From NCBI RefSeq assembly GCF_000332095.2, contig NZ_KI913949.1:501337-547811 (forward strand): a stretch of DNA of 46,475 nt, written 5' to 3'. Positions 10,748-44,452 of the stretch are shown piece by piece. The notes under the pieces were generated by a model that had not been told where the DNA came from, did not search any database, and saw nothing but the letters and a program-made list of their open reading frames with translations. The translations under genes were made by a program, and so were the position numbers. Source of the DNA: Leptolyngbya sp. PCC 6406 (lineage in GTDB: Bacteria > Cyanobacteriota > Cyanobacteriia > Phormidesmidales > Phormidesmidaceae). How positions within the stretch are numbered: the stretch's first letter is position 1; each line of letters begins with the position of its first letter.

Positions 10748-13282
10748 ATGGATATTGAATTTGCTGCCCGAACATACTTTTCCCAGATTAGGCAAGAATT
10801 AGAGGAGAGTGGCAGAAGCCATAAAACCTTACGAGTTAAATCGATCATGAAACGTTTTGGCTACAGCAGACGTAGCCAAGTTTTCGTAGATAGCGTCAAC
10901 ACAGCACTGGATGCCTGTGGATTATATGGAAAACCATATTTTTCTATTGATCTATCTCTTGATAGCAGGATTAGTATGACTTTGAAAGACGGAATTGACA
11001 ACTCAGTAAATAATTCTAATAATACCTCAAATGAGGTGATAAAAAATGAAAACCTAATTCTAGTCAACCATGACCTATTTTATTATTTATTCGATTTTGG
11101 TTCAGAACAGGAGTATGAAAGATTTCAGGCCAGTTTAGACTCAAATCAACCCATTGCGTTATTTTTGATTCCCGAGGATGAAGATTTCCTGACCGACTTG
11201 GTTTTTAGAATTCTGTCTTATGAACTAGTCAGGAAATATCAATATCAAGGTTCACCCGATATCCCGATTGCGTCGCGACACACCTTAAGCAGTCTATCTG
11301 AGGGATCCGATCAAGATCACAGGGTGAGGAATATTTTGGTGGGTACAGGACTATTTCGCTTTGATCGCTCTACGATGTCGAGTGTGATTTTAGGCGAAAC
11401 AGGCTTAGATCTTTTGGATTCAGAGGAATTCGAGGAGAAATTCGAACAACTTTCACTTTATGCCCATAAATACAACAAAAATCAATCATTTGTCATATTT
11501 CAATGTCCCTCTCAACAAGAAATTAGGCGGCACTCAAAATCCGATTTACTTGAACACTTGATAGATCGAGTCTCTAACCAGATTCCTTTAACCTTTGCGT
11601 TGAGATATCGATTTTCGGATGAGTTATCAATCGATCGCAGAGAAGAAATATCCGCTCATTTGCGCTTATTGATGGAAGTGCCAGAGTTTGAGATCGGAGA
11701 AGAAGAAATTAGTTTGATTGATTATTTCTTGGAGCTTCAAAAGGCCCAAGTTCAAGCAGAATCCCAACTGCTCTTCAAAATGAATGGGGACATTTTTGAA
11801 AAGCTGGTGTGGGGCTATGAAAGTGATGAACACATATATCTCAAATATTTTGCTATTAAAACCCTTGAGAGTGCTGGGCATTCACTTAAGAATATCCAAT
11901 GTGAGGTATCAATTAGCTCATCGAAGACTACAGAAGAATTAGGTACATCAGAATCAGCAGAAGTACAACGGACTGAAGAACAAGAACCCTTACCACAACA
12001 AGATGTTAATCGGAGACCTGATGTTTATGTGCAAGACAGAATAATTGTTGAGGTTGAGACCCTGCGCTCAAAAGTTTTTAATACTCAAAATGTTTTTTTT
12101 GATCTTATAGATAGACTACTTACCAAGGCTTTCGGATGGCCTAAATGTTTGCAGGAAGTTTGGTTGGTTCTCCCTGGCTTTGAAATTGCCAGAAACTATT
12201 ATCAGATCAAAAAGACTGAAGAAATACTAAGTTCCTTTCTGCAAAATACCCTTAATCGGAATATCAAGCTACTCGTGATGACTCCAGACTATGAGAATCA
12301 CCAGTTAATTCCAGTTTCTTTCGATCAAGTGCATTATCCATCTCTCATAATCTCACCGACAGTTAGCACTACTATAAAACCGCCAATTGAGAGACAGCAG
12401 ATGCGGTTGACGTTGTTTTCTGATGTGGCGGGACTTGAAGAAGAAAAGAAAAAGCTACGGCAAATACTAAAGTTGCAAGAAAAAGGGAACTCTTGCATCA
12501 TTAACGGAATTATATTTTACGGACTACCCGGATGTGGCAAAACGCTCTTAGCTAGAACCTTCGCGCACGAATCTGAAAGATATTTCCTACAGTTCTCTCC
12601 TGCCGATGTGAAGTCAATATGGATTGGTCAGACTCAGAAGAATATTCAGAAAATCTTTTCTCAGGCAAAAAGAAGATGTCCATCGTTGCTATTTATCGAT
12701 GAGCTAGATGCTATTGGCTTTAGCCGAAATGAATTCCAGTCCCACACCGATCAAAGGGCAACCATCAATCAACTACTGATCGAATTAGAGAACCTCCAAG
12801 GGCATGATGTTCTCGTTGTTGGAGCTACAAACTATCTTGAAAGCTTAGATGGAGCACTCAAGCGTTCGGGCCGATTTGATTGGAAAATCCCAATTTTTCC
12901 ACCGGATAAAAATGAGCGCAAGACTATGTATGAATTGTATTTCTCAAGATTACAGATTCCTTTTGAAGACAGCCTTATCAACTTCGATGAGATTGCGGAG
13001 AGAAGTATAAAATTCACTTCATCCGACGTTAAAGCTGTGTGTGACACCCTGAGAATGGAAGTCCTATTGGAGGAAATTCAGACATCTTTGAGGACTAATG
13101 ATGTAATTTGTCATATCAACCAACTACAAGAAGGTGGATTGTCCTTGAATCAGAAGCAAGTTCAAGATTTTGTCGTTGAGTGTAAACAGTTAGGCGTGAG
13201 AAGTTCTAAACTTAGCACTCTCAAGGCTGACTGGGGATTGGAGGAGTGCGATCACCCTTCGGATAGGCTAGCGCCAACATGA
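10748..13282 (+). CDS. Multidomain AAA+ ATPase with PD-(D/E)XK-like segment, family not recognised
   Basis: An 844-residue protein. (a) Residues 1-82: basic, possibly winged-helix, with TLRVKSIMKRFGYSRRSQ. (b) About 100-345: conserved region including FGSEQEYERFQ (117-127) and LDSNQPI (130-136). (c) About 350-490: PD-(D/E)XK-like core, with ESDEHIYLKYFAIKTLE then RPDVYV (D425) and IVEVETLRSK (E435, E437); the usual ExK lysine is missing or displaced. (d) About 553-780: one AAA+ module: Walker A GLPGCGKT (592-599), pore-loop-like WIG (625-627), Walker B LLFIDELD (647-654), sensor-1 ATN (693-695), arginine fingers R706 and R709. It starts like FtsH (DVAGLEEEKKKL) but has no membrane segment or M41 peptidase. 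AT-rich relative to neighbours. A broken paralogue is at 41929-44452. Function unknown; defence or remodelling of protein on DNA is inference. Confidence 0.85.
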   Translation: MDIEFAARTYFSQIRQELEESGRSHKTLRVKSIMKRFGYSRRSQVFVDSVNTALDACGLYGKPYFSIDLSLDSRISMTLKDGIDNSVNNSNNTSNEVIKNENLILVNHDLFYYLFDFGSEQEYERFQASLDSNQPIALFLIPEDEDFLTDLVFRILSYELVRKYQYQGSPDIPIASRHTLSSLSEGSDQDHRVRNILVGTGLFRFDRSTMSSVILGETGLDLLDSEEFEEKFEQLSLYAHKYNKNQSFVIFQCPSQQEIRRHSKSDLLEHLIDRVSNQIPLTFALRYRFSDELSIDRREEISAHLRLLMEVPEFEIGEEEISLIDYFLELQKAQVQAESQLLFKMNGDIFEKLVWGYESDEHIYLKYFAIKTLESAGHSLKNIQCEVSISSSKTTEELGTSESAEVQRTEEQEPLPQQDVNRRPDVYVQDRIIVEVETLRSKVFNTQNVFFDLIDRLLTKAFGWPKCLQEVWLVLPGFEIARNYYQIKKTEEILSSFLQNTLNRNIKLLVMTPDYENHQLIPVSFDQVHYPSLIISPTVSTTIKPPIERQQMRLTLFSDVAGLEEEKKKLRQILKLQEKGNSCIINGIIFYGLPGCGKTLLARTFAHESERYFLQFSPADVKSIWIGQTQKNIQKIFSQAKRRCPSLLFIDELDAIGFSRNEFQSHTDQRATINQLLIELENLQGHDVLVVGATNYLESLDGALKRSGRFDWKIPIFPPDKNERKTMYELYFSRLQIPFEDSLINFDEIAERSIKFTSSDVKAVCDTLRMEVLLEEIQTSLRTNDVICHINQLQEGGLSLNQKQVQDFVVECKQLGVRSSKLSTLKADWGLEECDHPSDRLAPT

Positions 13283-13319
13283 CGGGAGTGGAGGGCGGAC
13301 TCTATTCCTTGAATACGCT

Positions 13320-13526
13320 TTAGGCCGCTAGCAGTGGCATCCCTAGCGCTTGCAGGTCAACCGTCTCGACATTCTTAGAATAGTTATCCAGCGTGATAGC
13401 AACGACCTTGCCGTCTCCGTCATAGTCCAAAATTAAATCATCGGTAACGGCATCCGTCGCCACAACAGATTTTGTTGTTAATTCGATGGCTAAAGTATCG
13501 GTATCAGGAAAATATTGGATCTTCAT
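13320..13526 (-). CDS. DUF2283 family protein, probable antitoxin-like partner
   Basis: A 68-residue protein with MKIQYFPDTDTLAIEL, then LILDYDGDGKVVAITLDNYS and VDLQALGMPL, the DUF2283 pattern. Such proteins commonly follow DUF4258 proteins in cyanobacteria and the pair is thought to be toxin-antitoxin-like. Here its ATG overlaps (ATGA) the stop of a short upstream frame that looks like a shrunken DUF4258 gene. The DUF2283 gene itself looks intact. Confidence 0.88.
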   Translation of the reverse strand: MKIQYFPDTDTLAIELTTKSVVATDAVTDDLILDYDGDGKVVAITLDNYSKNVETVDLQALGMPLLAA

Positions 13527-13627
13527 GTGGGTTCCTCACCTCGCTGCTGGCGCTTATAAAAATTGCGGTCAACTTCAGGATGTTTCCGCGAAGCAAAGTT
13601 GTCAAAATAGCGAGTGGTTTTCAGCAT
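13523..13627 (-). pseudogene. Probable internally deleted DUF4258 gene (34 residues)
   Basis: The frame reads MLKTTRYFDNFASRKHPEV and continues DRNFYKRQQRGEEPT before stopping in an ATGA overlap with the DUF2283 gene. The N-terminus fits the start of DUF4258 proteins (KTTRYF....RKHPEV) and the end resembles their C-terminal (H)NAF.DRNF motif, but the 50-60 residues normally between are missing. This suggests an internal deletion that preserved the reading frame and the coupling to the next gene. The identification rests on short motifs and gene order. Confidence 0.5.
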
Positions 13628-13725
13628 AGCCCATTATATTGCAGGGTTCTGGCAGGGCGATCGCCCTGCGGACAGGCTATCGTCAACTCGATAGAGGGAG
13701 AGTGCGATCGCACATGCTTGCCCAG

Positions 13726-13787
13726 ACCCCCGGTTTCTTGTTCAGGAGTGAGCAGTCGGTAAAACTGCGACCCAAGAAACCGGGGTT
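13726..13787. repeat. Palindromic element with ACCCCGGTTTCTTG arms
   Basis: The arms ACCCCCGGTTTCTTG (13726-13740) and CAAGAAACCGGGGTT (13773-13787) are inverted repeats, with one extra C in the left arm, around a 32-bp loop. This is a common type of interspersed cyanobacterial palindrome. It lies between the DUF4258 remnant and the gene at 13806 and could act as a bidirectional transcription barrier. Confidence 0.75.
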
Positions 13788-13805
13788 CTCTACATGCCCT
13801 GCTCC

Positions 13806-14039
13806 TTACGGCAGAGTACGTTTGCGGGTCATGACGCTGATGTATTCGCCATTGCGCCCGGTGGGCAGGGGGTTGCTCCAGGCGATCCTTTCGCAGTAGC
13901 CAAGGATGGCCATGCGGTTGATGGCTTCCATGAGGGCACCGTAGTCACCCAGGAGGATATGACGAACGGCTTCTTGGTTGAAGGAGGGTAGGTTGAACTG
14001 GGGAGCGGGCTGTACCGCTCCGCTGGATGCTTGCAACAT
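13806..14039 (-). CDS. Conserved cyanobacterial small protein
   Basis: A 77-residue protein with a core FNQEAVRHILLGDYGALMEAINRM, then LGYCERIAWSNPLPT and GEYISVMTRK. The pattern ALGYxExxxWSxPxPTGxxGEYISVxTR is one I associate with short cyanobacterial hypotheticals that occur in several copies per genome. There is no signal peptide. Function is unknown. The 100-residue protein at 31187 belongs to a loosely similar class (LxxxxFAEVxEWxxxxPxP). Confidence 0.6.
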   Translation of the reverse strand: MLQASSGAVQPAPQFNLPSFNQEAVRHILLGDYGALMEAINRMAILGYCERIAWSNPLPTGRNGEYISVMTRKRTLP

Positions 14040-14382
14040 GGCGGGTATCTCCGTTTTCGGTTTAAGGAAAACGGGGAACTATCTAGCGTTTCCCAAATGA
14101 GGCGCAACGAAGAAGCTAGATCATAGAATGATCCCAGACATCTCGTCTTACCTAGGCTAAGCGGGATGTTCAGGGGAGTTGAGGAGCACCACCTCCTCTC
14201 TTCCCCGCCTAGAACCATTCCCCGTGACAGATAAACTACACAATGTCCGGCTGGAGTGCAACCGTATGTACAGGTTTGTTGACGATGGGAGGAGGCGATC
14301 GCTTTTGATAGACAGAACTTAAGCATTTGTCCCCCTGGGCAGGTGTATGACTATAAACTGAGGGAAAAATAGGCAGAATCAC
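14040..14382. other. Intergenic region, no gene seen
   Basis: Upstream region of the minus-strand gene at 13806. The open frame at 13829-14326 on the minus strand is out of phase with that gene and has no protein character. No RNA gene was recognised. The 41-bp repeat array follows directly. Confidence 0.4.
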
Positions 14383-14505
14383 TCCACCTAATCACCTCGA
14401 TAGGGCAGTTAGGCTGACACAGTTCCACCTAATCACCCAAATCAGGGGGTTAGATTGAAAAGTTTCCACCTAAACACTCAAACGGGGATGTTATGCAGAA
14501 TAGTT
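14383..14505 (+). repeat. 41-bp period tandem array, three units
   Basis: Three units begin with TCCACCT at 14383, 14424 and 14465, exactly 41 bp apart. Each unit has internal dyad symmetry: TAATCACC on the left, GGGGGTTAG-like on the right, followed by GCTGACACAG in the first. The units are related but not identical, so this is not a CRISPR repeat-spacer arrangement. A second array of the same family, inverted, lies at 35303-35421. Possible roles are protein binding sites (iterons) or remnants of a mobile repeat; neither is shown. Confidence 0.8.
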
Positions 14506-14612
14506 CTCTCCAATTAATAGTGAGGTGGCTTCATTAGCTAGGTTGAGAAATCCTATAAGATTAGTGATAATAATCAGGAATATAAGTCAACAAGAACTCG
14601 CTATTACCGAAA

Positions 14613-15425
14613 ATGAAAAGAGTGGCGACGAGAGGTTCCAAAAAAGGAATGTGTAACATCTGCGGAATTTTTTGCACTCTTACTGAAGATCATGTTCCTC
14701 CTAAAGGGAGTATTACTCCTCAGAAAGTGGGGATTAAAAGCCTTGCCCAAACTGTTGATCCAATAGATCCTAAAATAGTTCGACTATCTCAAAATGGTGT
14801 CAAATTCCGCAGCTTATGTCCTTCGTGTAATAATCATAGGCTAGGAAGAAAATTTGATCCTGCTCTCAATGCCTTCAGTCAGGCAGTAGCTCAAATCATT
14901 CGCAACCGTAGCCATCTATCTCTACCTTCAAGACTTGAAGTTAGCTTGCAACCGCAGCGAGTTGTGCGCTCTATAATCGGTCATTTACTTGCCGCTGAAA
15001 TCAGGGAAGATATGTCTTTAGCTCCTGCTTCAGAGCCAATGCGTGATCTCATGAGATATTATTTCCTGGATACATCAGCGGATTTGCCATCAGAGTTTAA
15101 TGTGTACTGCTGGCCATATCGTGCAAAACATCAAGTTATCTTTAAAGGTGTTGGAATTCTTTCTGGAGATCAAATCGTAATAGGCGATTTTCTTAAATAC
15201 TTTCCAGTGGCTTTTTGGTTGACATATCAAGCGCCAGACAGGATCAGAGAAGTCATGCGAGATCGAGAGATTTCAGTTCGTGGAAATGGATTTGATGATT
15301 GGAGTACTGTGGTTATTGGTACTAAAGAGAAAGATACGTTTCGCCCAAACTGGCCTGAGTCCCCAGATGACAATGAGGTTATGGTAATAAATAATGATGT
15401 TTGCTTCGTAGCAACCGCCCCCTAA
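14613..15425 (+). CDS. HNH-like (zinc-finger type) protein, putative nuclease
   Basis: A 270-residue protein beginning with an HNH-type metal finger: C14-x2-C17, DHVPPKG at 26-32 and CPSCNNH at 69-75. The four cysteines and the DH match treble-clef HNH endonucleases. The rest (about 90-265) is a conserved-looking alpha/beta region with no motif I can name. The gene is AT-rich and lies just before a PD-(D/E)XK nuclease gene on the same strand, 203 bp apart, suggesting an acquired defence-type pair. No partner methylase is adjacent. Confidence 0.7.
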   Translation: MKRVATRGSKKGMCNICGIFCTLTEDHVPPKGSITPQKVGIKSLAQTVDPIDPKIVRLSQNGVKFRSLCPSCNNHRLGRKFDPALNAFSQAVAQIIRNRSHLSLPSRLEVSLQPQRVVRSIIGHLLAAEIREDMSLAPASEPMRDLMRYYFLDTSADLPSEFNVYCWPYRAKHQVIFKGVGILSGDQIVIGDFLKYFPVAFWLTYQAPDRIREVMRDREISVRGNGFDDWSTVVIGTKEKDTFRPNWPESPDDNEVMVINNDVCFVATAP

Positions 15426-15628
15426 CAACCCTGTTTGAGCAGACTACCAAAGATTTTTGATGTTTAATCTTAAGGTTGTCGATAGCCGCTCAACAGGAAC
15501 GTTAGGTTGCGGTGCACTTGATATAGAAAGGCTAAAAAAGCTCACTTAGGCCCAAAATAGTGTTCATCTTGCTCCTTGGTTGGCAAAATTAAAGTTAAGA
15601 TAGTTTTTCTTAAATAACCCAACTCTTT

Positions 15629-16600
15629 ATGTTGCCTCTCGTAACCATAGTTGAACTTCGCGAAGCAATTGCTGAGGCACTTGCAGAGGAAAAGTCATAT
15701 AACTTACCTGCAATCTGTACAGCTCTTGAACTTGAACCGGGAACTGTAGAAGAAGCCCATTCTAGCAAGCGTAGTTATGTACGAAATCGAATCATAACTA
15801 AAAATCTGAGTGATTTAGTTGACTTGGGAGAGAAGTTGCTAGAGAGATATCCTAATGCTGAAGATCTATCAAATATGGTTTGTCTCTTCAAAGCACAAGC
15901 TAGAGGAGTAAGTGGGAATATCAAGAATCTGATTTTTGCTGCGGATGGGCCTAAACCTGAATTAGTCTTAACTGATGCGCTGAATAACACTATTGAAATC
16001 GTAGAAAATGCGGAATATTGCCTTGTCTATAATTTACCTATTCTTCAATCAGGTCTACTTTGGCAGAATCTGGTGGAATGGTGGGCAAACAGTAATAATC
16101 TAGCTTTTCCTGATCGGAAAACTGAAGAGAGTTTATTTTTGAGACTACGAAATTCATTGGCTTCTCCACCAGAGAAGCTTTTCTTCAATTCATATTTTAA
16201 AGACTATCACAAGGCTCTAGGAGAATGTTTTCCTGCATTAGTCCCCCAGGTATACTTGCATTTTGATCCAAAAAGTCTCAAAGATTTAGGGGGTCAGCAA
16301 CGTTTGCCACGGCAGCGAATGGATTTTTTAATGCTTCTGCCAAATAATGAGAGAATTGTGATTGAGATAGATGGGAAACAACATTATTCAGAAAATAATA
16401 ACGTACCTAGTCCTAAGAAATACTCAGAAATGGTTGCCGAAGATCGTAGACTGCGATTGTTGGGTTACGAAATCTATCGCTTTGGCGGATATGAGCTGAA
16501 GGATGATGAACACAATAAAGCTCAAGGTGAAAACTTAGTGCGAAATTTCTTCTGTCAACTCTTTGACAAACACCGAATTGTACCTGCATCGGAAACCTAA
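15629..16600 (+). CDS. PD-(D/E)XK nuclease protein (DUF559/Vsr-like C-terminus)
   Basis: A 323-residue protein. The C-terminal part has a nuclease core: RMDFLML with D232, IVIEIDGKQHY with E246-I-D248 and H252, a conserved D272 in VAEDRRLRLLGYEIYRFGGYE. This is the DUF559/Vsr-like arrangement. An upstream segment (about 168-215, ESLFLRLRNSL and PALVPQVYLHFDP) is usual for single-protein nucleases of this group. The N-terminal 75 residues (LREAIAEALAE, YNLPAICTALEL, SKRSYVRNRI) resemble domains found on AbiJ-type abortive-infection proteins, but this is from memory. A stand-alone defence nuclease is the likely role. Confidence 0.75.
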   Translation: MLPLVTIVELREAIAEALAEEKSYNLPAICTALELEPGTVEEAHSSKRSYVRNRIITKNLSDLVDLGEKLLERYPNAEDLSNMVCLFKAQARGVSGNIKNLIFAADGPKPELVLTDALNNTIEIVENAEYCLVYNLPILQSGLLWQNLVEWWANSNNLAFPDRKTEESLFLRLRNSLASPPEKLFFNSYFKDYHKALGECFPALVPQVYLHFDPKSLKDLGGQQRLPRQRMDFLMLLPNNERIVIEIDGKQHYSENNNVPSPKKYSEMVAEDRRLRLLGYEIYRFGGYELKDDEHNKAQGENLVRNFFCQLFDKHRIVPASET

Positions 16601-16774
16601 CAATTCTGGTGTAGCAGATTGGTTGAAATCGCTTAGCCTAGATGCAAGAAACTTGCCAACTACTGACCAGCAACGTTAGGCAGTTTCAGTAACATTTGTG
16701 TTGGGTTTTGCTAACGCTCTGCCCAACCGACAAAAGGTGACTAACTGGTCAACTTTAATGAATACCTTATCCTC

Positions 16775-17110
16775 ATGAAACCTAATCTCCAGGTCATCCT
16801 AACTCACCTTAAACAAGATCTGGCTAGTCTCTATGGCGATCGCCTGCTGCACCTCACCCTCTTTGGCTCCCAAGCCCGTGGAGACGCTGAACCGGATTCA
16901 GATATTGATGTGTTGGTCGTGCTGAAGCCACCCGTCAATCCCGGTGAAGAAATCAAACACACCGGCAAAGCCGTTGCCGACCTTTCTCTTCACCATGATG
17001 TGGTGATTAGTTGCCTCTTCATGGGTGAAATCTACTACCAAACCCGCAACAGTTGCCTGCTTCGCAACATCCGCAAAGTAAGGAGTCTCCCTATGACCGA
17101 CGAACAGTGA
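16775..17110 (+). CDS. MNT-domain nucleotidyltransferase (MntA-like antitoxin), altered C-terminus
   Basis: A 111-residue minimal nucleotidyltransferase with the signature LFGSQARGDAEPDSDIDVLVVL (G31-S32, D43, D45; written in parts GSQARGDAEP and DSDIDVLVV). Relatives modify and neutralise HEPN toxins. The usual end KEGV(S)L-stop, overlapping the HEPN start as ATGA, is recovered if one T (17079) is removed. With the extra T the frame instead runs KVRSLPMTDEQ into the toxin start region. The catalytic part is unaffected. A degraded HEPN start follows. Confidence 0.88.
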   Translation: MKPNLQVILTHLKQDLASLYGDRLLHLTLFGSQARGDAEPDSDIDVLVVLKPPVNPGEEIKHTGKAVADLSLHHDVVISCLFMGEIYYQTRNSCLLRNIRKVRSLPMTDEQ

Positions 17111-17267: not shown

Positions 17268-20200
17268 TTAGAGCCCATTGCCAATGAGGATAAACGGAGC
17301 CCAGTAGTAGGGATGGGCCAGCGTTCCCCCCGGTACCAAGCGTTGCCCCGTTACGGTGCTGATCAACTCCACCGAGCCCCGCTGCCCCCCCACCGCCGAA
17401 AAATCGTTAGTAATCAACGCTGCCTGAGCCGCCTGCAACGCCGCCGTCTTGGTCATGCCCAGGGCCAGAGCGTCATAGAACGCCGTCATGAGAACCTGGG
17501 TACCCTGGTCACTCACTGCCCACAGGGAGGCGATCACCGCCTTTGCCCCCCGCCGCTGGAACTGATAGCCCAGCCCCAGAATTTGCTCGCCGTTGTTGTC
17601 AAAACCTCCCAACCCAGTCTCACAGGCACTCAACACCACCAGGTCAATGTGAGATAAGGACCAAGAGCCAATGTCCCGCAGCGTAGGGGCATCGCCATTG
17701 CCAAGGAGAATGAAGGAATCCGTTGGGTCACCGGGGACAAAGACCCCATGGGTGGCGAAGTGGAGAATATTGGCGCTGCCCAATTCCAGCAGCACCGTAT
17801 CTAGGTCAAAGGCTTGGTCAATCAGGGCGACGGTGTTGGGCAGGGCCGCTTGCAGCAGACTCACCTCTTCCCCGGCATAGAGTAACCCCCGCAGGTTGAA
17901 GGCACCCACGGGGTGAACTATCCCCACATCGGCAAAGGCTCCCGCCAAGATGCGGGGGGCGGCTTGGGGCTGGGCGGTCAATTCCTCTAGGGAGAGAGCG
18001 GTGATGTGGTTGATGCGGAACCGTTCTGTTAACCACTGGTCGCCATCGTGGAGGGCGGCGAGGGGAATGTAGCGCAGGTTGGCATCGGGGGCATAGAGCA
18101 GGGTCGTCACCCCCGCCGCCGCCAGGTCTGCTTCCAGGGGTTCAATTAGCCAGCGGTAGAGTTGCTGGGCGGGGGTTTGGGCATCGCTGCCGGGATTTTC
18201 TAGGGCTTGGCGAAAGGCGAGGATGGCGGCATTCAACTCCGCCCGCCCCACAGCGACGGTGCGGCGCAGGGGTTCAGTATCGGCGGTGGTGATCACCAGT
18301 TCTAGGCGATCCTCCAGGACCAGGGGATAGATCAGGGCGGCATCGAGGCTGTCCAGGTTGTTGCGCAGGGCGGAGAGTCCCTCTAGGTCAACGGTCTGTC
18401 GCAGTACCTGGGGGCTGAGGGCCGCTAGGAGGGCTTGGATTTCGGGATCCTCAGCAAAGCGGTTGAACTGGGCGGCCAGGGCTTGCTCTAGACGCACCAG
18501 GTCTTGCAGCCGTTGGGTTTCTGCGGGGGTGAGGTTGCCGCTGCGTTGTCGCTGACTGAGCTGCGCCCGCTCTTGGCCCAGGGCAATGGCGCTGGCCTGC
18601 AATTGGTTGTATTGGTCGAGGATGCTCTGCTCTGGCCGCAAGTAGTCCACACCGCTGGCGGTGCGGGCATTGCGCTGCACTTCTTGCAGGTAGTCGTCGA
18701 GTTCTTGGACTTTGAGTAGGTCGAGGACGCGCTGGGCTTCGAGGATGCGGTCTTGTTGGAGGAGGAGGTCGGCGAGGAGGCGGTAGCTGTCGGCGACGGT
18801 GTCGGTGAAGGATTGCTGGAGGTCGGTGCTGAGGCCGCGAATGTCGCCCCGGATGGCTTCGCGGATATCGACGCTGGCTTTGAGGAAGATGATGGCCAGT
18901 TCGGGTTGGGCTTGGTCGTTGAGGAGGATGCCGATGTTGCTGAGAGTTCGGGCTTCTTCGGCGCGAGCACCCAACTCGTTGAAGAGGGCGACGGCTTGGC
19001 CAAACTGCTCTAGGGCGCGGTCGGTCTGGCCCAGACGGTCGTAAGCAACGCCCAAATTACCCAGGGCATAGCCTTCCCCAGCACGGTTGCCAATCTCGCG
19101 GGCGATCGCCAGGTCTTGTTCATAGAAGTCAATGGCGCGGGAGTACTGACCCAGGCTGGCGTAAGCAACGCCCAAATTGCCCAGGGCGCGGCCTTCCCCG
19201 GCCCGGTCGCCAATCTCGCGGGCGATCGCCAGGTGTTGTTCATAGAAATCAATGGCGCGCTCGTACTGGCCCAGGCTGTTGTAAGCATTGCCCAAATTGC
19301 CCAGGGCGCTGCCTTCCCCTGCCCGGTCTCCAATCTCGCGGGCGATCGCCAGCCGTTGTTCATAGAGGTCAATGGCGCGGTCGTACTGGCCCAGATTGCT
19401 ATAAGCCACGCCCAAATTGCCCAGGGCGCTGCCTTCCCCTGCCCGGTCTCCAATCTCGCGGGAGATCGCCAGCCGTTGTTCATAGAGGTCAATGGCGCGA
19501 TTGTACTGGCCCAGGTTTCGGTAAGCAATGCCCAAATTGCCTAGGGCGCGGCCTGCCCCTGCCCGGTCGCCAATCTCGCGAGCGATCACCAAGGATTGTT
19601 CATGGAAGTCAATGGCGCGCTCGTACTGGCCCAGGCTGAGATAAGCATTGCCCAAATTGCCCAGGGCGCTGCCTTCCCCAGCGCGATCGCCAAGCTCGCG
19701 GGCAATCGCTAAGTCTTGTTCATGGAACTCAATGGCGCGGCGATAATCCCCCAGGCTGTCGTAAGCATTGCCCAAATTGCCCAGGGCGCGGCCTTCACCA
19801 GCCCGGTCGCCAATCTCGCGGGCGATCGCCAGGGCCTGTTCATAGAGGTCAATGGCGCGGTCGTACTGGCCCAGGTTGCGGTAAGCAATGCCCAAATTGC
19901 CTAGGGCGCGGCCTTCCCCGGTGCGATTCCCTGCTGCCCGGTAGAGTTCTAAAGCTCGTTCCCAAGAGGCCAATGCTTCACGAAACTGACTACGGTTGTA
20001 CTGTTCAATCCCTAAATCTAGAAGTCGATCCGCTTCTTCTAGACGACTATCCGCCTGGGTCAAAATCTGCGGCGGTTCCGCCAATAGGGGCGACGGCTCC
20101 ATCTGTGGCCCTTCCCCGTTCAGTGGGTCAAGAGCCCAGGGTTCTTGTATCGTTCCTAACCGCAACGGGTCACCCGCGCCAAAGAACCCTGGGCTCTGGG

Positions 20201-35302: not shown

Positions 35303-35421
35303 TTTCCACCTATTTACCCGTATGGGGATCTTAGATGGAAATCTGTCAGTCCAACCCCCCGTATAGGGTGATTAGGTGGAAATACGTCAGCCTAACACCC
35401 CTATATGGGTGATTAGGTAGA
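35303..35421 (-). repeat. 41-bp period array, inverted relative to 14383
   Basis: On the minus strand units start TCTACCT at 35421, TCCACCT at 35380 and TCCATCT at 35339, again 41 bp apart. The units share TAATCACC, GGGG.GTTAG and GCTGAC with the 14.4-kb array. The last unit (35303-35341) is a near-perfect dyad, TTTCCACCTA to TAGATGGAAA. The array lies between the C-protein operator and the low-confidence frame at 35422. Confidence 0.8.
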
Positions 35422-35676
35422 ATGCTTCAGTATAATCATCCCTCCGATTTTAGGCTAAACCTGTTTCGGCTGACAGTCTCCGGGGGCGGCAGAGCGCCTG
35501 GGGTGAGGTTACCCAACCTCAGGGGGTGCCCGTTGACGCTGCTGACGGAACGCTTGGGGGTGGAGCGGGGATCTGTGGTAGACATCTTTTACCCCAGTGG
35601 TTTGCAGATTGAGATCTCTAAGCAGCGGCAGCAAGTCGCTTGGGAGTGTGACACTAACTTCTGTCGGAGAGGCTGA
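35422..35676 (+). CDS. Possible small protein, doubtful
   Basis: An 84-residue frame reading LTLLTERLGVERGSVVDIF and YPSGLQIEISKQRQQVAWECD in its second half. That half looks protein-like, the first half does not, and the ATG lies within the last repeat unit. It may be the tail of a broken gene. No family recognised. The stretch 35677-35867 holds nothing I can name. Confidence 0.25.
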   Translation: MLQYNHPSDFRLNLFRLTVSGGGRAPGVRLPNLRGCPLTLLTERLGVERGSVVDIFYPSGLQIEISKQRQQVAWECDTNFCRRG

Positions 35677-40632: not shown

Positions 40633-41259
40633 ATGATTCTCTACACCCTAGATATGCTGGGGGTTTCTGTCTTTGCTATTAGCGGAGCCCTGGCTGCCGG
40701 ACGCAAGCAGCTAGACCTGTTAGGGGTGCTGGTGATTGCGGTGGTGACGGCCCTGGGGGGCGGCACCCTGCGGGACATACTGCTGGATCGCAGCCCGGTA
40801 TTTTGGATTCGTCAGCCCGATTACCTAATTGTCACCCTGCTGGCGGCGATGGGGACGGTGCTGTACACCCGGTTCCTCAAACCACCGGGAAGATCCCTGC
40901 TGGTAGCCGACGCCTTTGGTCTCGCCCTGTTCAGTATCAGCGGGGCTCAGATCGCGGAGGCGGCAGACCTACATAGCCTGATCATTATCCTCATGGGTAC
41001 CTGTACCGGGGTGGTGGGTGGTGTGATTCGGGATGTGATTTTGCTGGAGATTCCCGTCATTCTGCGGCGGGGAAATATCTACGCCACTGCCGCGATCGCG
41101 GGTATTGCCCTATACCTGCTGCTCCAATACCTAGGTCTCCCCTCCCTTCTGGCTCAGGGCGTGGGAATGGCCACCATTGTCCTCCTACGCCTCGTCGCCA
41201 TCATTTGGCGACTGACCTTGCCGATCTACCATCTGCCCGACCAAGACCAAGGACTATAA
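40633..41259 (+). CDS. TRIC-family (UPF0126, YicG-like) cation channel protein
   Basis: A 208-residue membrane protein with a duplicated three-helix unit, the TRIC/UPF0126 pattern. Each half carries a GG motif with RD: ALGGGTLRDILL and GVVGGVIRDVILLEIPVILR (in parts). Other features: DMLGVSVFAISGALAAGRK and DAFGLALFSISGAQIA. Bacterial TRIC proteins form trimeric cation channels. It starts 15 bp after the previous stop. Confidence 0.93.
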   Translation: MILYTLDMLGVSVFAISGALAAGRKQLDLLGVLVIAVVTALGGGTLRDILLDRSPVFWIRQPDYLIVTLLAAMGTVLYTRFLKPPGRSLLVADAFGLALFSISGAQIAEAADLHSLIIILMGTCTGVVGGVIRDVILLEIPVILRRGNIYATAAIAGIALYLLLQYLGLPSLLAQGVGMATIVLLRLVAIIWRLTLPIYHLPDQDQGL

Positions 41260-41291
41260 CTGGCCTCCTACGCGATGCTCCGGGGGAGACA

Positions 41292-41572
41292 CTACGCGAT
41301 CTCATCCGGGTCAACCCCCAACTCCCGCAACTTAGCCGCCAGTTTTTCGCTGCGTTCCTCTGGGGTTGGCACCAACGTGCCCTCTGGGGTAAAAAAGCGC
41401 ACAGGTCAATTTGGTCGCGGTGCAGGTCGGTTTCCAAGGGGGGCTCGTGGCTGTAGAGGTCACTGGGGGGAAAGACCACCGCTGCCTCTGGCTCAGATGT
41501 GGCCACCGGAGACCGGCCCTCAGGGGAGATGGCGATAGTACCGGTTTCTTTGGCCAGAATCATGGTAGGCAT
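41292..41572 (-). pseudogene. Internally deleted Uma2 family gene
   Basis: The first frame reads MPTMILAKETG, then VVFPPSDLYSHEPPLETDLHRDQIDL, a Uma2-type N-terminus (PPSDLYSxEPPLExxLH). After about 57 codons a different frame gives VRFFTPEGTLVPTPEERSEKL and AAKLRELGVDPDEIA-stop (in parts), the Uma2 C-terminus. The central part with the catalytic residues, roughly 140-150 residues, is missing and the two ends are out of frame. So this is a deletion remnant of a second Uma2 gene. Confidence 0.75.
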
Positions 41573-41589: not shown

Positions 41590-41820
41590 CTAGTGTAGCC
41601 AGGTATGGGATGCGATCTCCCGTGAGATGAACTCATCAATCGTGTCCAACACCGCCACCAGTCGGCGTCTCAGTAGTTGGAGGACAGTCTTCTCCGGGGT
41701 GCCTAAGCGGGCCAGAATGCCCACTTCGGTGCCTAAGCGGGCCAGAATGCCCACTTCCACCTCCCGCCACCGAATCGCCCCCATGGATGTCTTGGGGGTG
41801 GGCCGAAACGGTACCATCAC
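41590..41820 (-). CDS. Short ORF with internal 30-bp duplication, doubtful
   Basis: A 76-residue frame in which EVGILARLGT occurs twice in a row, because the 30-bp unit beginning GCCTAAGCGGGCCAGAATGC is duplicated (41701-41730 and 41731-41757, the latter nearly identical). The downstream part (VLQLLRRRLVAVLDTIDEFISREI) is helical and protein-like. No family recognised; it may be a remnant. The intergenic region to 41928 holds nothing else. Confidence 0.35.
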   Translation of the reverse strand: MMVPFRPTPKTSMGAIRWREVEVGILARLGTEVGILARLGTPEKTVLQLLRRRLVAVLDTIDEFISREIASHTWLH

Positions 41821-41928: not shown

Positions 41929-44452
41929 ATGACTTCAGAATATTTAGACAATGCAATTGGCTATTTTCTAAGCATCAAGGAAAAGCTTGAAAGTACTGGT
42001 AACAATTCAAAAACGATTAAACTCAAAAATATTCTGGCAGTACTTGGCTACCGTCGTCGGAGTCAACTCATTGTTGACAAAATTAATTGTACTCTGAGCG
42101 ACTTACAACTCAGCGTGAATCCATCGATAGATATGTCTATCGACTTTGACAGAAGAATATCAATCTCTCTGAAAAACAAAGCAGTCAAAACAGAGCAGAA
42201 TAATAGTTCTGTCAGAAATAAGAGTTTGGATTTGAATGCAATTTCATCTATACAAGTTAAATGTGACTTTCTATCGCACTTGTTCGATTTAGGTTCCGAA
42301 CAAGAATACGAACGTCTGCAAGCATGTCTTGACTCCAATCAACCCATTGGCATTTTCTTTGTTCCGTTAGAGGACGACTTCTTTTCTGAGGTTGTCATTA
42401 AGGTTCTAAACTATGAACTTATTAGGAAGTATCAGTATTTGGGTATTTCAGGAACCCCAAGCTCATCCACATCAACTTTTTCCTCTGTCAGTTCCGATTT
42501 GGCAACAAGTCACTTAAATATTAATGATGTCGCCTCAACATCTGGCATCATTCGATTTGATCGGGAAACCATGCATAATGTATTGCTTGGTAAGACTGGT
42601 CTTGAAATGTTGGACTCTGAGCAATTTGAAAACGAGTTTAGTCAAGTATCCTTATATGCTCATAAATACAACAACGAACAATTTTTTGTTGTTTTTCATT
42701 GCCCATCAGAGCTGGAAATAAGAAAGCAAGGTCGTCTTGATTTATTCAGTGATGTTGTTGACAAGGTTTCTGAGAGGCTACCTTTCACATTTACATTGAA
42801 ATGCAAGTACTCCTCAAGTAATTCATTGCTACTAGACCAGGAGGTTTACAAGGATATTTGTAGTCACTTAAAGCTTCTCATGGAGATGCCAAGCTATGAA
42901 AGCGAAGAAGAAGAAGCTACTCTATTAGAGTACTTCGTTGAGTTGCAAAAGGCTCAGGCACAGTTTGAGTCTCAACTTTTTCTCACGATAGAGCCCCATT
43001 ATTTCAACAAGCTGACGTGGGGCCATGAAAGTACAGAACATATTTACTTGAAGTACTTTGCCATACGAACATTGGAAGAAATCGGCTATAACTTGCTTGA
43101 TATTCAATGTGAGAAATCCATAGAAAAAACGTCAGAAATTATCGATGTTGATGCTAGATAGGTTGAAAAAATAACTGAGATTGGTCACAGATCTCGACCA
43201 GATATTTATGTGAAGAATGAAGTTATTGTTGAAGCAGAAACGCTCAGAAGCAAGGCAGGTAGTAGTAATGTCTTCTTGAATCTTACCCGTAACATACTCA
43301 ATAAGTCAGAAGGTTGGGGTAAGAATGCTAAAGAACTTTGGATTGCACTACCAGGTTTTGAAATTGCCAGGAACTATTATCAATTCAAAAAAAATCCAAG
43401 AGATTTTATGTTCTGAGCTTGCCCAGAAGTTCGGCTCATCGTTTCGAGTCCAGATAATGGCTCCAGATTATCAGCTTCAAAAACTTATTCCGGCATCTTT
43501 TGATCACATTCATTATCCTTCTAAAAACCCTACGTATGGCGATGCAGTTAACCGGAATGCTCGTCAAACTTCCACAAGAAAAGTCCAAGAAAAGAAGATT
43601 TCTTTCCAAGATGTTGCGGGTTTGTCTGCCGAGAAAGAAAAGTTGCGAAAGCTCCTTCTTCTCCAAGAAAAAGGATTGCATACAGCTGGCATTAGAGGGA
43701 TTCTCCTTTTTGGTCTGCCTGGATGCGGAAAAACTCTGTTGTCACAAGCATTTGCAGGCGAAAGCAATCGTTACTTCTTTAATATCTCACCTGCTGATAT
43801 TAAGAGCAAATGGATAGGCGAAAGTCAGCAAAATATTAGGAGAATTTTTGCGCAGGCAAAAAAACGTTCGCCATCCGTTGTCTTTATTGACGAGTTAGAT
43901 AGTGTTGGCTTTAGTCGTGTGGAAGAGCAGGCTCACACAGATCAAAAAGCAACAATTACTCAACTGCTGATCGAGTTCAACAATCTACATGATAGCGATG
44001 TTGTTGTCATTGCAACCACTAATTTCATTTCAGTTTTGGACTCTGCGTTGATACGGTCAGGACGGCTGGGATGGAAAATCCCCATTTTCCCCCCAGACCA
44101 GAACGAAAGGCATGATTTATTCCGATTTCATCTATCTCGTTTCCTTGATCAATATCCTGTCAATAAAGATCTTTTAAATCTGGATCTCATTGATTTCGCA
44201 GCACTAGCGGAGCGCAGCAAGCGATTTGTGTCTTCTGATATCGAAGCAGTTTGTCAGGAAGTTGTACATACTGCTGTATTAGAAGAAGGTGACGCACTAT
44301 TGACTACGTCCGATATCAGTTTATATATTGATAACTTTCAAGAATCAGGGCTTACCCTAACACCAGAAAGTGTGCATCACTTTCTGGACGAATGTCGTCG
44401 GCTCAGCATTAAGAGTCCTAAGATTCAATGGCTTGAAACGGAGTGGAAGTAA
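41929..44452 (+). pseudogene. Broken paralogue of the AAA+ / PD-(D/E)XK-like protein
   Basis: Full-length copy of the protein at 10748. The first 410 codons are open, then TAG (43159-43161), then the same frame continues (SRPDIYV, VIVEAETLRSK) to an 8-A tract (43387-43394), where one A too many shifts the frame; the rest (KKIQEIL onward) continues in the next frame to 44452. With the TAG read through and one A removed, it would be 840 residues, versus 844 in the intact copy. Preserved motifs: Walker A GLPGCGKT, WIG, FIDELD, ATTN, SGR. The stop lies in the linker before the nuclease-like core. Whether it is dead, or is expressed by slippage, cannot be decided by eye. Confidence 0.9.

Follow-up and report, generated by a model that had tools for sequence, protein, structure and literature searches.

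A probable young pseudogene from a family of AAA+ ATPases joined to a nuclease-like domain in Leptolyngbya sp. PCC 6406

The window analysed here, a stretch of 46,475 nucleotides from Leptolyngbya sp. PCC 6406, carries at 41929-44452 a gene that is very probably a young pseudogene of an uncharacterised AAA+ protein with a putative PD-(D/E)xK-fold core, which as a phenomenon is ordinary. Relative to the 33 intact homologues compared, its reading frame is disrupted by a TAG at 43159 and by a phase change at a run of eight adenines (A8). An earlier sequence-only reading had offered recent inactivation as one of several options, and this option is supported by the two breaks, by invariant residues without excess loss, by the intact homologues and by independent breaks elsewhere. 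We infer both that function was lost and how the events followed one another: a low-GC gene, whose product combined a winged-helix-like N-terminal region and a middle region with a putative PD-(D/E)xK-fold core and an AAA+ domain of the classic clade, would have been acquired horizontally by a cyanobacterium whose genome also holds an intact but distant homologue at 10748. The acquired gene would afterwards have been hit by a nonsense mutation and by a frameshift of one base within an A-tract, and the surviving product, if any, would be an N-terminal fragment of 410 aa without the ATPase. The broken gene represents one further case in a family with members broken at differing points in several genomes.

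Structure of the broken gene

The broken gene and its intact homologue both lie on the plus strand. From the ATG at 41929, frame 0 is open for 410 codons up to the in-frame TAG (43159-43161); this first ORF (41929-43161) spans the winged-helix-like N terminus and the middle region and reaches into the core as far as its first helix and strand. Past the stop, frame 0 is open again as far as the A8 run (43387-43394), which occupies the position of conserved K-K codons, and a TGA follows soon after. The segment between the breaks (43162-43387) encodes the part of the nuclease-like core with RPDIYV and VEAETL and is absent from both ORF products. Downstream of the A8 run, homology resumes one frame over and extends to 44449. 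The second ORF (43325-44452) starts at an ATG, ends at the TAA at 44450-44452 and encodes 375 aa (P0001), of which about 21 are non-homologous residues, followed by the end of the core and a complete AAA+ domain. Once both breaks are discounted, 838 sense codons are obtained. Both parts matched the intact homologue of 844 aa in the same window (P0002, 10748-13282) with E-values of 1.4e-136 and 1.0e-102, a similarity far above chance level. ORF reading and the matches to P0002 confirmed the earlier claim of one TAG and a phase change at A8 in an otherwise open frame, and the 375-residue AAA protein predicted from the ATG at 43325 was also found as an ORF with a complete AAA+ domain. The TAG had been placed in the linker before the core, but it actually lies within the core: the first helix and strand precede it, the RPD strand follows, and the loop that contains it is acidic, variable and modelled with low confidence. 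The claim that all AAA+ motifs are kept holds for Walker A (GLPGCGKT), Walker B (FIDELD) and RSGR; the exception is WIGQ, which reads WIGE.

A complete AAA+ domain in the 375-aa ORF, together with a weak AAGG eight bases upstream of its ATG, would be expected if the gene were split into an N-terminal 410-aa and a C-terminal 375-aa AAA protein working jointly or singly. However, neither protein contains the core segment at 43162-43387, in which the putative active-site strand lies, and the first ~21 residues of the second ORF are out of the homologous frame. Its start at 43325 lies 164 nt past the stop of the first ORF, so that simple translational coupling is unlikely when judged by published criteria (PMC3711429). 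Furthermore, each of the 33 intact homologues examined is a single ORF, and no other intact member is split. The split-gene option of the sequence-only reading is thus unsupported, and we regard it as very unlikely. The near-complete retention of the AAA+ motifs would also fit a functional AAA-only product. Should the 375-aa ORF be expressed and co-assemble with the 10748 homologue as a regulatory or poisoning subunit, the broken gene would have turned into a partner of that homologue, a scenario that we consider extremely improbable.

Two further features were observed upstream. A perfect tandem duplication of 30 bp (41698-41757) is located ~170 bases before the broken gene, and a 123-aa ORF on the minus strand (41201-41572), which has no Pfam match, resembles a shortened or frameshifted gene remnant.

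Age of the breaks and broken relatives

The age of the breaks was assessed by a constraint test based on 317 residues that are invariant across the 33 intact homologues. The broken gene retains 260 of these and the intact homologue at 10748 retains 257 (Fisher p 0.84); between the two breaks the values are 20/23 and 23/23, respectively, a difference that is not significant. In a neutral-decay simulation the probability of at most one stop was 0.43 at 0.02, 0.06 at 0.05 and 0.015 at 0.07 substitutions per site. As so few stops become improbable by 0.05-0.07 substitutions per site, the broken gene would have been constrained until recently. Since it retains as many invariant residues as the intact homologue, the breaks must either have arisen recently, at less than about 5-7% neutral divergence, or be sequence errors. 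Any relaxation of constraint after the breaks would be too young to show in these counts.

Other members of the family are broken as well. One (G539) carries one stop in a gene that is 98.9% identical to an intact one, another (G543) has three stops and has lost its C-terminal half, and a third (G175) is a remnant containing internal gaps. A plasmid copy in Nostoc sp. MS1 (L048:7983-10463), annotated as several small proteins, is 96% identical at the DNA level to an intact gene and contains seven one-base indels, all of them in homopolymers. One of these affects the same A-tract, where an additional A disrupts the frame. Because the members are broken at different points, the comparison of these genes would suggest repeated independent loss in the family.

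Sequence or assembly errors at one or both breaks, with an intact gene in the living strain, would also account for the absence of additional loss among the conserved residues, and the A8 run is an error-prone type of site. The MS1 plasmid homologue, with its seven one-base indels confined to homopolymers in a Nanopore/Illumina hybrid assembly (PMC13033781), looks like an error pattern. However, the TAG lies outside any homopolymer and would require a substitution error, and two separate errors within one gene are demanded. The assembly is unlikely to be error-prone in general, since no fewer than 20 ORFs of the neighbourhood that have Pfam matches are unbroken, mostly at close to the full length of the profile, and the genome is rated 99.96% complete. 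We therefore judge the error explanation to be improbable, although it deserves some weight.

The sequence-only reading had also considered expression by slippage at the A-tract. A-tracts as long as A8 are prone to slippage (PMC5574713, PMC3711429), and the same tract is out of frame, by one additional A, in the MS1 plasmid copy. Slippage of RNA polymerase or ribosome at A8, or phase variation at this site, would however leave the upstream TAG in place. The broken gene needs a one-base deletion, whereas insertions predominate in homopolymer runs of E. coli and Buchnera (PMC5574713). In intact relatives the longest A-runs at the K-K site range from A3 to A8 and are read in frame, so the tract appears to be a by-product of the K-K codons and a mutational hot spot rather than a conserved switch. 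A programmed frameshift as defined in PMC3711429 was rejected, because the site is not conserved and 33/33 intact homologues are in frame; the sole other frame change at the A-tract is that of the MS1 plasmid copy, which itself has six further breaks. The slippage option is hence unsupported, and we see hardly any chance that it applies.

Domain architecture and fold of the family

The C-terminal ORF product P0001 matched PF00004 with an E-value of 1.4e-33, and the presence of Walker A, Walker B and the second region of homology identifies it as a classic-clade AAA+ protein. The nearest solved structures for the AAA domain are CDC48/p97-like and FtsH-like ATPases. Its likeness to the ATPase domains of CDC48/p97, PAN and FtsH (E about 1e-45 to 1e-79) is one of the AAA+ domain; these classic-clade ATPases differ in having another N-terminal half, and the family of the broken gene has no protease domain. 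IetA of the anti-phage system IetAS is also alike in the AAA+ domain alone (PADLOC E 3e-33; NCBIfam far under the cut-off), without any match to the broken gene outside this domain. We found no IetS-like or subtilisin-type protease among the scanned neighbours. As only the AAA+ part matches and no adjacent IetS is present among these neighbours, membership in the IetAS defence system was rejected.

For the N-terminal 410 residues no family was matched in Pfam, PADLOC or PHROGs; in NCBIfam residues 34-100 gave a weak match to an anti-phage model (E 0.0016). The fold prediction for the whole protein was poor (mean pLDDT 47), and the core was therefore folded and searched alone. The central core, modelled separately from four family members, reached a mean pLDDT of 77 and a pTM of 0.77. 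Structural comparison of this model returned the PD-(D/E)xK-fold proteins XisH (Z 9.2), AF1548 (Z 8.1) and Can2 (Z 7.4) and, among restriction enzymes, FokI (Z 6.3) and McrBC (Z 5.6), while Foldseek hits were weak with a best E of 0.009. In place of the canonical D...(D/E)xK pattern the family carries RPD/IEV...VExET, with E where K would be expected. Moreover, E replaces the D of RPD in much of the family, including most of the Nostocaceae clade in the conserved place described below. The modelled core thus appears to resemble the fold of the XisH family and other PD-(D/E)xK-fold proteins but differs from them in the catalytic pattern. With ExE in the position that (D/E)xK takes in active nucleases, catalysis by the family is doubtful, and any nuclease activity is putative.

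The full-length family appears to be an AAA+ ATPase joined to a nuclease-like domain. It is seemingly undescribed, because Pfam, NCBIfam, PADLOC and PHROGs contain no full-length model of it and our search of the open-access literature on cyanobacterial AAA ATPase pseudogenes or homopolymer phase variation yielded nothing concerning this family.

Distribution of the intact family and origin of the broken gene

Intact homologues, for example in Calothrix sp. NIES-4101 (L034) and Nostoc foliaceum FACHB-393 (L035), share the full-length architecture and the AAA+ motifs with the broken gene at ~40-58% identity by segment. The Nostocaceae homologues consist of one unbroken ORF, whereas the broken gene is interrupted by the TAG and the phase change at A8. 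In a sample of 386 genomes of the phylum, strong matches to the N-terminal and core part occurred, besides the strain's own genome, in the family f28 alone, which named tree members indicate to be Nostocaceae-type. The gene was found in 53 of 217 f28 genomes, with 10 of 11 in one genus. It occupies a conserved place in 16 of the 23 neighbourhoods compared (Nostocaceae-type loci L088-L105), beside sugar-type ABC-transporter genes and with cytochrome c550 and plastocyanin genes nearby; outside this place it is scattered and was found once on a mobilizable Nostoc plasmid. With one chromosomal place in many Nostocaceae and a scattered occurrence elsewhere, the intact family is perhaps of greater weight than the broken gene. 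Distant phylum hits (G059, G064 and G084) appear to be separate genes of high GC and uncertain relation and were set aside.

Among 59 relatives searched, 35 of them in the strain's own family, matches were limited to the AAA part, and no other searched genome of its own family contained a full-length match to the broken gene. The gene was probably acquired horizontally. In an empty-site comparison within the genus the flanking genes were found, and none of the available loci of relatives joins both flanks. A viral or phage origin was rejected, as neither a pattern scan of IMG/VR nor phage records gave a relative.

The broken gene had been called a second copy of the gene at 10748-13282, which is misleading: the two are ~47% identical, and in a tree including the 33 intact single-ORF members they were placed on separate long branches (1.50 for the intact, 1.69 for the broken gene) without forming a supported pair. 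On the basis of this identity and of the equally long branches, a recent duplication was rejected. GC content is 39% in both genes compared to 54% for the window. Given their low identity, their equally long branches and their position in separate 39% GC islands, the simplest reading is that the two genes are likely separate acquisitions from the Nostocaceae-centred family.

Further features of the window were noted. The low-GC stretch following the intact homologue (13000-17000) contains a weak AbiJ-domain match and a nucleotidyltransferase gene and is possibly a defence-type island. A gene for a TPR-CHAT protein of 1100 aa carries a 120-bp tandem array of 7.6 copies (19014-19919). The tandem repeats of 41 bp at 14383-14482 and 35317-35422 are related, run in opposite orientation and share the 13-mer CCACCTAATCACC, for which the genome has exactly 8 occurrences at about five places, mostly paired 41 bp apart.
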